The translations under genes and the position numbers were made by a program. The notes under the pieces were generated by a model. That model did no database searches, was not told the origin of the DNA, and saw only the letters and a program-made list of their open reading frames with translations. A stretch of DNA of 64,000 bases. Origin: Bordetella holmesii ATCC 51541 (GTDB lineage: Bacteria > Pseudomonadota > Gammaproteobacteria > Burkholderiales > Burkholderiaceae_B). The stretch lies in assembly GCA_000612485.1 (NCBI GenBank), contig CP007494.1, positions 62,001-126,000 of the forward strand, read 5' to 3'. Position 1 is the first letter of the stretch; every line of letters begins with the position of its first letter. Positions 5,121 through 28,318 of this stretch are shown here, piece by piece.

Positions 5121-5311
5121 AAGTTACAGGACCGATTATCGTACATGGAAAAAATGTGTCACGCGGGTGACAAAACCTGGCGGCCCATGGCGAGCGCATG
5201 CCCGGCAACAAACCTGACAAACCGATGAAAAACCCCCGCAACCTGGATGTTTGTCCAAGCTCGGGGTCCGTCCGGCGTGCCAGCACGGGCACGCCTGCTA
5301 GCGCTGGCAGA

Positions 5312-21199: not shown

Positions 21200-21269
21200 G
21201 CGCATACATTGAGCCGTCTTCGTTACAGGTCTACACTGGGCTTCCCGTCAACCCCGGAGCATGCCTTTC

Positions 21270-21818
21270 ATGAGCACCCTCAATATCGCGGTTTTTGTCG
21301 GTAGCCTGCGCGCCGAGTCGATCAATTTGCGCCTGGCGCGCGCCCTGGAAAAACTCGTTCCCGGACAGGTCAAATTCCACTACGTGGATTTGAACGTGCC
21401 GCTGTTCAATCAGGATCTCGAAAACGACATGCCTGCGGCAGCGGCCAAGCTCAAGCAGCACATCAAAGACGCCCAAGGCGTGCTGTTCGTCACGCCAGAA
21501 CACAACCGCTCCATCCCGGCGGCGCTGAAAAATGCCATCGATTGGGGTACCCGGCCCTGGGGACAGAATGTGTGGATAGGCAAGGCAGGCGGCATCGTCG
21601 GCACCTCGCCCAGCGCAGCCGGCACGGCCATGGCACAACAACATCTGCGCAATATCCTGGCTGCCGAAGGCGTCAATGTCCTCACCACACCGGAAGTCTT
21701 TCTGCAAATGAAGGACGGCCTGATCGACGCCCAATACCAGATCACCAACGAAGACACTCGCAAATTCCTGCAAGGTTGGGTGGACCGGTATATAGACTGG
21801 GTTTCCAAGTCCGTGTGA
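21270..21818 (+). CDS. NAD(P)H-dependent FMN reductase
   Basis: 182 residues of flavodoxin-like fold. FMN-binding loop FVGSLRAESINLRLARAL at the N-terminus, then FVTPEHNRSIPAALKNAIDW and GTSPSAAGTAMAQQHLRN, all typical of the FMN_red family (chromate/azo/quinone reductases). ATG 21270 fits the GGAG ten bases upstream better than the ATG at 21261. Cytoplasmic; physiological electron acceptor unknown. Last gene before the repeat array. Confidence 0.9.
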   Translation: MSTLNIAVFVGSLRAESINLRLARALEKLVPGQVKFHYVDLNVPLFNQDLENDMPAAAAKLKQHIKDAQGVLFVTPEHNRSIPAALKNAIDWGTRPWGQNVWIGKAGGIVGTSPSAAGTAMAQQHLRNILAAEGVNVLTTPEVFLQMKDGLIDAQYQITNEDTRKFLQGWVDRYIDWVSKSV

Positions 21819-21853
21819 TCTGCTCCACTGCCGCTCGCCTGCGGGCGGCAGTC

Positions 21854-22531
21854 TTATCCCCGGCCGATGTGGAAAAGCTTGAGGACAGATGGCGGGTACT
21901 CCCGGATTACTCCGTCATATCAATGACTTGATCTCAATGATCAATATCTGATCAACACTTCATGCAAGCTCTCAAGTTGTCCCCGCATTTTGTGGATAAG
22001 CATGAGGACAGATTGCTCACATCCTAAAAAATTCTTTTCAAATCAAAATCTTAAGGTCCTTCGTTCGAAAAAAAGAGCAGTTCAGGGTTAACCCGCGAGT
22101 CAGCAGGGCAGTTCTTCAGATGCCTCGCCGGCTCCTGCACACTTATCCCCTGCATGTGTGGACAAGGCGCTTGATAGCTCGCGCACAAGCCCAAAACAAT
22201 GATCCCCATCAATGACTTAGCGACCACGAGCAACAACTGCCCAGGACACTGACGGCCGCCACGGGCCGTCGCCGCTCGACGACCCGTGGCCTTTTATCCC
22301 CGTGCAGTGTGGACAAGGTATTGAACAGCTTTGGGGCAAACCCGAAAACCCTATACGGGCCGGGCACTTGCAAGACGTGATCAAAAATTGCTCGGGCGAC
22401 TGGTGACGACGGCGGCAAACGGCTCTGTGCGTTATCCCCGCAAAATGTGGACAAACCCTTGAATAGTTGCCGAACAAAGGCAAAATCCCCTTGTTCGACA
22501 GCCACTTGCAACGGCCGATCAAAAAAGATGC
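21854..22531. repeat. Array of five DnaA-box-like dyads in a gene-free region
   Basis: Between the FMN reductase and dodecin lie about 700 bases with no credible gene. Five units recur, each a TTATCCCC-type half-site followed at exactly 14 bases (start to start) by TGTGGANAA. Half-site pairs start at 21854/21868, 21977/21991, 22143/22157, 22294/22308 and 22432/22446; unit spacing is 123, 166, 151 and 138. Units at 22294 and 22432 align without gaps for about 100 bases, sharing TTGAA-AG, CACTTGCAA and GATCAAAAA. A strongly AT-rich tract (22022-22060) and three GATC sites (21930-21956) lie between units. The layout recalls a replication origin or a DnaA-titration locus. Short minus-strand frames through it only translate the repeats. 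Confidence 0.8.
21991..21999 (-). promoter_or_regulatory. Perfect DnaA box (TTATCCACA on the minus strand)
   Basis: Exact consensus nonamer inside the second dyad of the array. The other right-hand half-sites differ by one base (TTGTCCACA at three units, TTTTCCACA at the first). Confidence 0.7.
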
Positions 22532-22538
22532 AGAGCGC

Positions 22539-22760
22539 TCACTCGTCCTCGAGACGCAAGCCCAGTTTCAGGCCGACCTGCCAATGCTCGACCTTGCCAT
22601 CCTTGATATGGCCACGCACCTCGGTGACCTCAAACCAATCGAGATGCCGCAACGAGCGCGAGGCCCGTTCGATGGCCTGTTTGATCGCGTCATCGGTCGA
22701 GACCGACGAAGACCCCACGAGCTCTATCTGTTTATACACATGTGCTTTCTTGGACATCAC
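22539..22760 (-). CDS. Dodecin flavoprotein
   Basis: 73 residues (MMSKKAHVYKQIELVGSSSV...). The family pattern is complete: VYKQIELVGSS, DDAIKQAIERAS, LDWFEVTEVRGHI and VEHWQVGLKLG; the tryptophan in DWFEVTE is the one that stacks on flavin in bacterial dodecins. Twelve copies assemble into a hollow sphere that stores or buffers FMN/FAD in the cytoplasm. The second Met (22757) is an alternative start. Its upstream region is shared with the end of a broken LysR gene. Confidence 0.93.
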   Translation of the reverse strand: MMSKKAHVYKQIELVGSSSVSTDDAIKQAIERASRSLRHLDWFEVTEVRGHIKDGKVEHWQVGLKLGLRLEDE

Positions 22761-22822: not shown

Positions 22823-23726
22823 TCAAGCCGCCTGCGCAAAGCGCGCAGACAGAAAATCGCGTAAGCGCCTTACTGCGGGAGACAGACGGGAACGCTCCAC
22901 GCACAAAAGATATACCGGACAACGCTCGCCCTGATAATCCGGCAACGCCACCACCAACCGACCTGCTCGCAAGTCCTCGCAAACGTCGAAATAGGACTTG
23001 TAAGCCAGCCCGTCGCCCGCCAACGCCCAGCGCCTGACCACATCGCCATCATCGGCAGCGCGATCACCCTTCCACGGCGACGTCAGTGTGTTTCCCGTCG
23101 CGCTCGAAACGCCAGCGATCGTGCGGAGCGTCGCTCAACATGAATGTCAGGCAATTGTGGTTATGCAAATCTTCGGGCACACGGGGCATACCGCGGCGCG
23201 CAAAATACTCTGGCGCTGCACAAAGCACCCGACGGTTATCCGGCGCCAGAGGAAGCGCGATCATGGTTGAATCACCAGGGTCGCCGTACCGAATGGCAAT
23301 ATCTACCCCTTGCCGATGCAGGTCCGTCAAACGATCGCTGATACGGATCTGCAAGCGTATGCCTGCATGCTCACGCTGAAAATCATCCAACCAGGGCAGC
23401 AGCATATGCCGCCCCAAATCAGACGGCATGGACAAGGACAACTTACCCGATATCGAGTGACGGTCGCGCTGGACCGACCCTCGCCCGGCCGCAAGCGCCG
23501 CGAGCGCGGCATGCGCGTGGTCGCGATACCGCTCACCCTCGACGGTGAGCCGCAAGCTGCGGGTCGAACGTACAAAAAGCCGGACACCCAATGCCCCTTC
23601 CAACCGTTTGACAGCGGCACTGGCCACGGCCGGCGTCAAGCCCAACTCACGTGCGGCGGCGGAAAAACTCCCTGCCGCCGCGGCGGATACAAAAATGCGC
23701 AGGTCTTCCACTCGCTCGGCGGCCAT
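22823..23726 (-). pseudogene. LysR-family regulator, frameshifted near the C-terminus
   Basis: The first 220 codons (MAAERVEDLRIFVSAAAAGS, with a winged helix SFSAAARELGLTPAVASAAVKRLE) read normally, then the frame hits TGA at 23064. The C-terminal 75 residues (DVVRRWALAGDGLAYKSYFD ... RLRDFLSARF) continue in the next frame. One G fewer in the GGG run at 23067-23069 would restore a 300-residue LTTR of the AaeR/YhjC type. Divergent from a quinone-oxidoreductase-like gene 100 bases away, its likely former target. Confidence 0.88.
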
Positions 23727-23826
23727 TTTCAAAAATCCTTTGAAACTGAAGCAGATCTTAGCGGGTTTTTCTACAAGGCTGACCGGGTCAGGATGATGCA
23801 GTCCCCCACGCACTCGAGGATCACAG

Positions 23827-25690: not shown

Positions 25691-28318
25691 ATGAATAAAT
25701 CAGATCACTCTGCACATACCCCGATGATGCAGCAATACCTGCGCCTGAAAGCCGAGGCCGGGTCGTTGCTGTTGTTCTATCGCATGGGGGATTTCTACGA
25801 GATGTTCTATGAGGATGCCGAGAAAGCCGCGCGTCTTCTGAACGTCACGCTCACCAAACGGGGCACCTCCAATGGAGCGCCCATACCCATGGCGGGTGTG
25901 CCGGTACATGCCATGGAGCAATACCTGGCCCGTTTGGTGGCACTAGGCGAGTCCGTGGCCATCTGCGAGCAGATCGGCGACCCCGCGGCCTCCAAAGGTC
26001 CGGTCGAGCGCAAGATCGTGCGTATCGTCACGCCCGGCACGCTGACCGACGACGCATTGCTGCCGGCTAAAGCCGATCGTGCGCTGGCCGCGGTCTGCAT
26101 CTCGGGCAAGCGCGACCCTCGCGCAGGGATTGCCTGGCTGAATCTGGCCAGCGGCGAGTTCCACGTCACCGAGTGCGCCCCTGCTCTACTGGATTCGGAG
26201 CTGCATCGCATAGGTCCGGCCGAGCTCATCTACGCCGATAGCGCAGAGCTGGATACAAGCTATGGGGGCGCACGTGCCCGCGTACCCGATTGGCATTTCG
26301 AGGCCGACGGTGCCCGCGCGCACTTGTTGGCGCATTTCCAGACCGACTCGCTGGCCGGCTTCGACATCGAGGACATGCCGGTGGCCGTCTGCGCGGCGGG
26401 TGCCTTGCTGCGCTATGCGGCCCGCACCCAATCCCAGGCCCTGGCGCACGTGCAAACCATCAGCGCCGAGCGGGCCGGGCTTTATGTCCTGATGGACCCG
26501 GTCACGCGGCGTAATCTGGAGCTGACGCAAACGCTCTCCGGCGAGGATGCCCCGACGCTGTTCTCCCTGTTGGACGATTGCTGCACGCCGATGGGTAGCC
26601 GGTTACTACGTCGCTGGCTCCATCATCCGCTGCGCGAGAATGCACCCGTGGCCGCTCGCCAGCAGGCCATCGCCACGCTGCTGACCGCGCGGCTGGACAT
26701 GGCGCAGACCTTCGGCGCGGCCGGCCTGCTCGATGCGCTGCGTTCGGCCCTGGGAGTGTTTCCGGATATCGAGCGCATTGCCGCACGCCTCGCCTTGCGC
26801 TCGGTGCGCCCCCGTGAGCTGGCCAGCCTGCGGGATGCCTTGGGCACCCTGCCGCAACTGCGCATGCTGGTCGCCCCGCTTGCCGAATCTGCTCGGTTGG
26901 CCGAATTGGCGGATCAACTCACGCTCGACCCTGCCATTGCCGACCTGCTGATGCGCGCCATTGCTCAGGAGCCTTCTCTGGCGCTACGCGATGGTGGCGT
27001 CATCGCCACGGGCTTTGACTCGGAACTCGACCAGTTGCGCGTACTGGCCGCCGACAGCGGCGAATTTCTGCTGCAACTCGAAGCAAGGGAGCGCGAACGT
27101 ACCGGCATATCCAATCTGCGGGTGGAGTTCAATCGTGTCCACGGCTTTTATATCGAAGTATCCAAAGGCCAGGCCGACAAGGTACCCACGGACTATCGAC
27201 GCCGGCAGACGCTGAAAAACGCCGAGCGCTATATCACCCCAGAACTCAAGAGCTGGGAAGACAAAGTCCTCTCGGCTCAGGATCGCGCCTTTGCGCGCGA
27301 GAAGTGGCTCTTCGAGCAGGTACTCGATGCGCTGGCGGGCTATGTTCGACCGCTGGCCGACGCGGCCGCGGCACTGGCCGAGCTGGATGCTTTGGGCAGC
27401 CTGGCCGAACACGCCCGCCGCCATGACTGGGTCGCCCCGGACCTGATCGAAACCGCCGAAATCGATATCGATGCCGGCCGGCATCCAGTCGTCGAGCGCA
27501 CCATCGAACGCTTCACCCCCAATCATTGCCGCCTCGACGCCACGCGCCGCATGTTGCTGATCACCGGCCCCAACATGGGCGGGAAATCAACCTATATGCG
27601 ACAGATCGCGCTCATCGCACTGCTGGCGCGCACGGGCAGTTTCGTGCCCGCCCGGCGTGCCCGCGTGGGCAGGATCGATCGCATCTTCACCCGCATCGGC
27701 GCCGCCGACGACCTGGCGGGCAGCCGCTCCACGTTCATGATGGAGATGACCGAAGCCGCTGCCATACTGGCCGCCAGTACCCCGCACAGCCTGGTGCTGA
27801 TGGACGAAATCGGCCGGGGCACGTCGACTTACGATGGCCTGGCGCTTGCCTGGGCCATAGCCTTGCGGCTTGTGACGCACAACAGGGCCCTTACGCTCTT
27901 TGCGACACATTACTTCGAACTCACTCGGCTGCCCTCGGAGCAACCCGCGGCAGCCAATGTGCATCTGGCCGCAGCCGAATCCGCGGGTGGCATTGTCTTT
28001 CTGCACGAAGTGCGCGAAGGCCCGGCCAGCCGCAGTTACGGTATACAGGTCGCTCAACGCGCCGGTATTCCTGCCGCCGTCATCCGGCATGCCACGCGTG
28101 AACTCGAACGCCTGGAGGCGCAAGGTGCCCCCACCCCGCAACTAGGATTGTTTTCCGCTGCGCTCGATGCCGATGCCCACCACCAAGCGCAAGCCGACCG
28201 TGACGAGGACGATGCCGTTCGCGCCGCGCTGCACGCCGCACTGACCGATATCGACCCCGACAGCCTCACCCCGCGCGAAGCGCTGGACGCCCTTTACCGC
28301 CTGAAGGCCCTGCAATGA
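25691..28318 (+). CDS. mutS: DNA mismatch repair protein MutS
   Basis: 875 residues. Mismatch-reading motif [11 protein letters not shown] near residue 35 supplies the Phe-x-Glu wedge. Walker [10 protein letters not shown] near residue 625, Walker [17 protein letters not shown], and the signature ATHYFEL complete the ABC-type ATPase. MutS binds mispairs and recruits MutL. I place the start at 25691 ([20 protein letters not shown]), which aligns with the family; the frame is open to 25619. Intact, so the many indels elsewhere are not explained by loss of MutS. The JmjC gene overlaps its stop. Confidence 0.96.

Follow-up and report, generated by a model that had tools for sequence, protein, structure and literature searches.

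Five DnaA-box-like dyads in a gene-free region between convergent genes

The array lies in an intergenic region of 720 bases (21819..22538 of the window, by which we mean the whole stretch of 64,000 nucleotides that was analysed). No credible gene was found in it, in agreement with an earlier, sequence-only reading that had described a gene-free region of ~700 bases. The genes on the two sides converge. The upstream neighbour is an FMN-reductase-like gene (21261..21818, + strand), which also adjoins the array in 4 of the 6 other loci compared; the downstream neighbour is a dodecin-like gene (about 22539..22757, - strand), and the convergent arrangement with this gene next to the array is repeated in 5 of the 6. 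Further downstream lies mutS (25691..28318, + strand, family F1), as it does in six other loci. These three gene names are putative. The position of the array between two convergent genes makes a promoter function unlikely; the loci of some other genera are not flanked by convergent genes. Beside the array, the reading frame of a LysR-type regulator (window 22829-23730, - strand) is apparently broken.

The five dyads, all on the + strand, start at 21854, 21977, 22143, 22294 and 22432 and span 21854-22454. Their start-to-start steps are 123, 166, 151 and 138 bases and the offset between the half-sites is 14 bases in all five, without variation, which confirms the array at the coordinates claimed for it (five dyads, an invariant 14-base offset, steps of 123-166), with all dyads co-oriented. 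With ≤3 mismatches allowed, the dyad pattern matched the 64-kb window 7 times (the five array units, a mirror match of the second unit and one site elsewhere), compared with 0.19 matches expected from shuffled sequences, in which the largest count was 1. Six exact matches were present in the entire genome of 3,699,674 bases, 5 of them inside the ~600-base stretch of the array, and a reversed control pattern gave 0 exact matches in the same genome.

Over 80 bp, the window units share 49-65% identity with one another, and the proposal that the array grew by a duplication extending over ~100 bases thus finds no support as far as a recent duplication is concerned. We looked for plasmid relatives of the array and for Rfam matches within it and found none. 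RNAalifold predicted 4 base pairs, and none of the 4 was changed on both sides. Among the papers listed by full-text searches of open-access literature, none was seen to describe such an array.

Anatomy of the repeated unit

We aligned 87 units from 17 genomes without gaps; they come from the loci that correspond to the array, the window included. The search pattern consisted of boxes I and II only, and the conservation of these two boxes in the alignment is therefore by construction, while box III, box IV and the IHF site lie outside the pattern. Where a locus had dyads on its minority strand (mirror matches of near-palindromes), these were dropped, and the set leaves out the units of G005, G047, G028 and other genera. 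The unit is ~80 bp long and carries box I (+) at offset 0, box II (-) at 14 and a weak box III (-) at 26, followed by a box-like element IV (-) at 37 and then, at 64, by an IHF consensus. Outside the search pattern, strong conservation was observed at offsets 29-34, 42-44, 51-54, 67-69 and 74-76.

The DnaA-box consensus TTWTNCACA was scored at all 184 combinations of offset and strand in the 87 units, with an overall mean of 5.86 mismatches (sd 0.95). The best placements were offset 14 on the minus strand (mean 0.67), offset 0 on the plus strand (1.83), offset 13 on the plus strand (3.24, the mirror of box II) and offset 26 on the minus strand (3.44). Offset 37 on the minus strand ranked eighth of the 184 (4.03 mismatches), or fifth when G was allowed at position 3. 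As the placements at 26 and 37 rank this high, box II appears to be followed by a weak third box and a still weaker fourth box-like element in the same direction. The gaps are 3 bp between II and III and 2 bp between III and IV, in agreement with the DnaA spacing preference given in PMC11317965.

The same order of elements can be followed through the window, where we scored the units with a sequence-only profile, R1, made from 64 units (49 of the 87 and 15 from other loci). Unit 1 (21854..21930, +; 56.5 bits) has box I at 21854-21862 (+), box II at 21868-21876 (-), box III at 21880-21888 (-), the IV-like element at 21891-21899 (-) and an IHF consensus with 0 mismatches at 21918-21930. Unit 2 (21977..22053, +; 56.2 bits) has boxes I, II and III at 21977-21985, 21991-21999 and 22003-22011, the IV-like element at 22014-22022 and again an IHF consensus with 0 mismatches (22041-22053); its box II, TTATCCACA, is a perfect DnaA box. 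In unit 3 (22143..22219, +; 53.7 bits) the corresponding positions are 22143-22151, 22157-22165, 22169-22177 and 22180-22188, followed by an IHF consensus with 1 mismatch at 22207-22219. The last two units carry degenerate IHF-type sites: unit 4 (22294..22370, +; 52.9 bits; boxes at 22294-22302, 22308-22316, 22320-22328 and IV-like at 22331-22339) has one with 4 mismatches at 22358-22370, and unit 5 (22432..22508, +; 53.6 bits; boxes at 22432-22440, 22446-22454, 22458-22466 and IV-like at 22469-22477) has one with 3 mismatches at 22496-22508. The predicted IHF site is thus good in 3 of the 5 window units and poor in 2.

Against TTWTNCACA, the window units have 2-3 mismatches in box I, 0-1 in box II and 3-4 in box III. 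The right half-site, box II, is perfect in the units at 21854 and 21977 and has one mismatch in the other three, so that the near-consensus character stated in the sequence-only reading holds and its counts (one perfect, three with one mismatch) do not. Across the 87 units, WATCARNNNNTTR was present at offset 64 exactly in 12, with ≤1 mismatch in 36 and with ≤2 mismatches in 69; at offsets other than 64, the frequency of matches with ≤2 mismatches was 0.22%. An A-tract precedes this IHF-type site by about ten bases. The AT-rich tract at 22022-22060, which had been proposed as a DNA-unwinding element, is no separate element: it consists of unit 2's A-tract together with its IHF-type site, and it has its counterpart at the same place in the other units.

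A loose Fis consensus was matched at offset 29 (29-43) in 17 of the 87 units, and in 61 of the 87 with ≤1 mismatch, far above other offsets. This segment overlaps boxes III-IV, and the match could result from the bases of the boxes themselves. Judged by eye, the units do not fit the stricter published Fis consensus, position 39 being mostly C.

Conservation of the array and related sites in the genome

The best matches of the window units occur in the same order in G063, G065 and G068 (identity 0.71-0.94; for unit 4, 0.90-0.94 in these three relatives) and in G036 (0.65-0.78). Among four more distantly related species or strains of the genus, best matches reach 0.56-0.74 and their order is not clean. 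In four relatives, identity is 0.73-0.83 inside the units compared to 0.48-0.60 outside them. From these ordered matches in relatives, set against an identity of 0.49-0.65 among the window units themselves, we conclude that the array is old. The dyad is conserved across the genus, as a check suggested by the sequence-only reading now shows: it is present in 12 of 15 genomes, of which 9 contain at least 3 exact dyads in an array and three more have 4-5 units under a looser pattern; two of the three genomes devoid of the dyad are 73-77% complete. Close-spaced arrays occur in records named Bordetella trematum, hinzii, pseudohinzii and genomosp. 1, 5 and 12, and in a Candidimonas. These comparisons put the host genome within Bordetella or beside it.

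Across the family, 93 of 121 genomes, belonging to 34 of 42 genera, have units by R1, with 1-9 units per genome, although matches in the family genomes that supplied units to R1 are not independent. Among the 20 listed family genomes that gave no R1 match, 8 are ≤2.0 Mb in size and the others are 2.3-4.9 Mb. Across the order, 51 of 150 genomes matched; the 48 outside the family did so weakly, at 20-34 bits, with a single unit in 39 and two units in 9, and part of these matches may be due to chance. As a control, samples of G036 totalling 240 kb were searched with R1 and gave 0 matches at E≤5. The number of units per cluster was 2-7 among the genomes studied.

In the host genome, R1 matched 7 places at E≤0.001. 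Together with the six exact dyads this shows that the motif is not one that recurs at hundreds of unrelated sites, an outcome that had been named as damaging to the claim. One further locus contains two units ~2.6 kb apart, at 2,933,979 and at 2,936,531 (to 2,936,606; L088:7980 and 10533; L207), which scored 44 and 30 bits and are not part of R1. They flank a gene that we take to be GntR/MocR-like, and loci like this one are also present in genera g1 and g4. Weak R1 matches were seen near the dnaA and mnmG regions, both in the host genome and in G036 (scores of 10.0 and 10.5 bits, with E values of 0.15 and 0.1).

A single conserved dyad, TTATCCCCAACATCTGTGGAAAA, is located at 686,840 of the host genome (L006:1501, L082:6841) beside a thioredoxin-like gene (trxA) and has no IHF site. 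Sites of this type recur in other genomes of the family. We rejected the trxA site as another unit, since the IHF window has 5-7 mismatches in nine trxA-type sites among those listed (L082, L083, L112-L118); it is possibly a DnaA-controlled promoter.

Position on the replicon and orientation to the fork

To the left and to the right of the array GC skew is below zero, with one of 31 overlapping 4-kb windows, 20 kb away, at +0.009; the skew minimum that had been suggested as a check is thus not seen, and there is no switch at the array. In the host genome dnaA (1.29 Mb) and mnmG (1.32 Mb) lie together, elsewhere than the array (0.084 Mb), with dnaA 1.2 Mb from it, as expected from the earlier statement that neither gene is nearby. 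The match to mnmG (1,320,856-1,322,723) falls into two overlapping pieces that seem to lie in different frames, owing to a frameshift or a sequencing error. We also analysed G036, a single contig with dnaA at position 13, in 20 samples of 12 kb: skew is above zero in all samples between 50 and 1910 kb and below zero in all from 2096 kb onwards, and the array is at 951 kb, about mid-replichore. The only sampled skew switch away from dnaA is therefore that at 1910-2096 kb. Since there is no switch at the array, and since dnaA and mnmG lie elsewhere, the array is not an origin.

Measured from dnaA along the ori-ter arm, the array is at 0.65 in the host genome and at 0.51 in G036. In 19 single-contig genomes with 39 loci, 34 of the 39 were at ≥0.5 of the arm and 4 were below 0.4 (KS p 1.3e-5 for all loci and 0.013 for the best locus per genome; these p values ignore kinship). 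All 14 multi-unit clusters in these 19 genomes, from 8 genera, were internally co-oriented and opposed to the fork, on either arm. Single units were opposed to the fork in 12 of 23 cases at ≥30 bits and in 8 of 9 weaker ones. When 22 loci were compared, mutS was found in 7 and an MscS-like gene in 7, with both in G028 and G042, which suggests that many multi-unit clusters descend from one locus upstream of mutS. As many clusters look like one ancestral locus, the fork polarity is probably inherited, at least partly. We therefore set fork polarity aside as proof of function, given this shared ancestry and the 12 of 23 single units.

DnaA and partner proteins

The DnaA protein of the host genome has kept the presumed box-contact residues that we tested, as well as D269, R285 and L290; R227, which is important at DARS2, is replaced by H. 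An IHF-alpha match above the cut-off was found in the genome, a Fis-like protein matched below the cut-off, and Hda is present as an open reading frame of 249 codons. Four frames of 263 aa with equal scores (2928495, 3056059, 3659142 and 3690696) gave weak DnaA-family matches; we assume that these are probably insertion-sequence ATPases.

Interpretation of the array

What, then, is the array for? We consider it probable that it is a tandem, multi-copy DARS-like locus of DnaA regulation with IHF-type sites of its own, which would reload ADP-DnaA. DnaA binding to the array is likely, to judge from the boxes, and DnaA recharging is what we infer from their arrangement. Of the three options that the sequence-only reading had left side by side (an origin, a titration locus, a DnaA-reactivating site), the last is the best supported, because the cores of DARS1 and DARS2 have the same three-box geometry of 0/14/26. 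The array has this core in 5 of 5 units, boxes I and II are recognisable, and the locus is intergenic and lies between ori and ter. We counted several points against this reading: boxes I and III are weak, the IHF sites are poor in 2 of the 5 units and lie at another distance than in DARS2, and R227 is H; Fis is essential at DARS2 but is only a weak lead here; and R1 misses the DARS2 core, while giving weak matches upstream of nrdD and near dnaA and mnmG.

At a DARS-like array of this kind, ADP-DnaA would bind boxes I and II head-to-head and DnaA would extend along II-III-IV, and an IHF bend at 64-76 would close the complex. Contact between DnaA molecules would then expel ADP, and the freed apo-DnaA would take up ATP again, giving more ATP-DnaA for the next initiation. 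In place of a single strong core there would be several weak ones in tandem, and these could set the dose. Going further, and tentatively enough that we would rather doubt it than rely on it, the composite tandem DnaA-IHF unit, in low, variable copy number and fixed fork orientation, could be the family's main control of DnaA recharging, with the number of units setting the dose and with fork passage from the IHF side, from boxes IV to I, resetting the array.

Good descriptions of DnaA recharging come mainly from E. coli and related bacteria. If the DARS-like reading is true, control of the DARS type extends to a large betaproteobacterial family and can consist of weak cores in tandem that have IHF sites of their own, and the 2-7 units per cluster would form a natural copy-number series for testing replication timing.

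The main rival, which we regard as unlikely though it deserves to be taken seriously, is a datA-like locus, in which the boxes together with IHF would hold or hydrolyse ATP-DnaA and delay re-initiation. Many DnaA boxes and IHF sites in one non-coding locus are what is described for datA (PMC5742627), and five units would hold up to about 20 DnaA if every box were filled. To this extent the earlier comparison with a titration locus stands; in geometry and position the fit is less good. A fixed order over 80 bp exceeds what titration needs, datA itself has no head-to-head pair with an offset of 14 (≤2 mismatches) and no R1 match, and it is located at 0.20 of the ori-ter arm, as against the 34 of 39 loci found at ≥0.5 in the 19 single-contig genomes.

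It is improbable that the array is bound by another protein, a nucleoid organiser or an unknown regulator, whose sites merely resemble DnaA boxes. The left half, with its CCCC, and the weak box III are indeed poor DnaA boxes, but box II is near the DnaA consensus (mean of 0.67 mismatches in the 87 units, albeit inside the search pattern), the geometry matches the DARS core, and the listed box-recognition residues of DnaA are unchanged. A DnaA-controlled promoter or a structured RNA is very improbable: the lone dyad next to trxA could be a promoter site of this kind, and the loci of some other genera are not between convergent genes, but the array itself is, and neither Rfam nor the predicted pairs (0 of 4 changed on both sides) speak for an RNA. 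Least of all can the array be a replication origin away from dnaA, a reading that its cluster of DnaA boxes with an AT-rich stretch had invited and that we reject, as the skew is negative on both sides, G036 switches only at 1910-2096 kb away from dnaA, and the AT tract is an IHF-type site.

Comparison with oriC, datA, DARS1 and DARS2 of E. coli

We compared the DARS-like array with 109 kb of E. coli sequence covering 16 DnaA-bound rows of a ChIP-seq table in PMC11317965. In this search space, head-to-head pairs with an offset of 14 and ≤2 mismatches in all were found at the DARS1 core and the DARS2 core only. The best R1 match was the DARS1 core (14.1 bits, E 0.0038, 33 of 80 positions), the second was a head-to-head site in the right part of DARS2 (L092:5451-5479; 11.8 bits, E 0.021, 29 of 80 positions) and the third was located upstream of nrdD (9.3 bits, E 0.12). 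R1 did not match the DARS2 core at E≤10, and it did not match datA or oriC in the 109 kb. A site at L092:5555-5583 was dropped as an E. coli counterpart of the IHF site, its R1 score (4.2 bits, E 5) not being significant.

With oriC, the array shares DnaA boxes 2-4 bp apart and IHF, as we gather from papers, and it differs by its lack of a skew switch and its distance from dnaA and mnmG. With datA, it shares DnaA boxes and IHF in a non-coding locus (PMC5742627); datA differs in the pair geometry and R1 result given above and in being nearer the origin.

The closest likeness is to the two DARS loci. Boxes I-III are described as equally spaced in both cores, with box I opposite to II and III, DARS is described as binding ADP-DnaA preferentially, and the head-to-head contact at boxes I/II is given prominence (PMC5742627; also PMC8682772). 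DARS1 (bioD-uvrB) is intergenic and has boxes I (+), II (-) and III (-) at 0/14/26, and its box II is the identical 9-mer to box II of unit 2. Like the array it lies away from the origin, at 0.66 of the ori-ter arm. DARS1 has a single core with stronger boxes, whereas the array combines its five cores with a fourth box-like element and IHF-type sites; in vitro, the DARS1 core is active without further factors according to the review PMC5742627.

For DARS2 (rppH-mutH region), we placed the core at L092:5136 by means of the published primers that replace boxes I-III (PMC4585315). Its boxes at 5136 (+), 5150 (-) and 5162 (-) again give 0/14/26, with one mismatch each. DARS2, which depends on IHF, resembles the array further in its probable IHF sites, its additional DnaA boxes and its position at 0.41 of the arm; it differs in having one published core and in that Fis is essential. 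Box III has 3-4 mismatches in the window units compared to 1 in both E. coli cores, and full activity of DARS2 is said to require box III, while boxes 1 and 2 are called crucial (PMC4585315). Flanking the DARS2 core on the side of box III, two sites with the IHF consensus lie 3 bp apart (L092:5229-5257), 93-121 bp from the start of box I. They are probably IBS1-2, whose spacing is given as 3 bp in PMC4245941. The IHF-type site of the array is thus on the box III side as in DARS2, but at an offset of 64 instead of 93-121, and DARS2 is reported in PMC4245941 to be weakened by shifts of 5-10 bp. DARS2 also contains a second head-to-head pair with an offset of 14 at L092:5452-5486 (a perfect box II between a box I-like element with 3 mismatches and a box III-like element with 2), and may therefore hold two core-like arrangements. 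Finally, the spacing within DARS2 is stated to be conserved in E. coli-proximal beta- or gamma-proteobacteria in PMC5742627, while the 2014 paper cited there (PMC4245941) says gamma.
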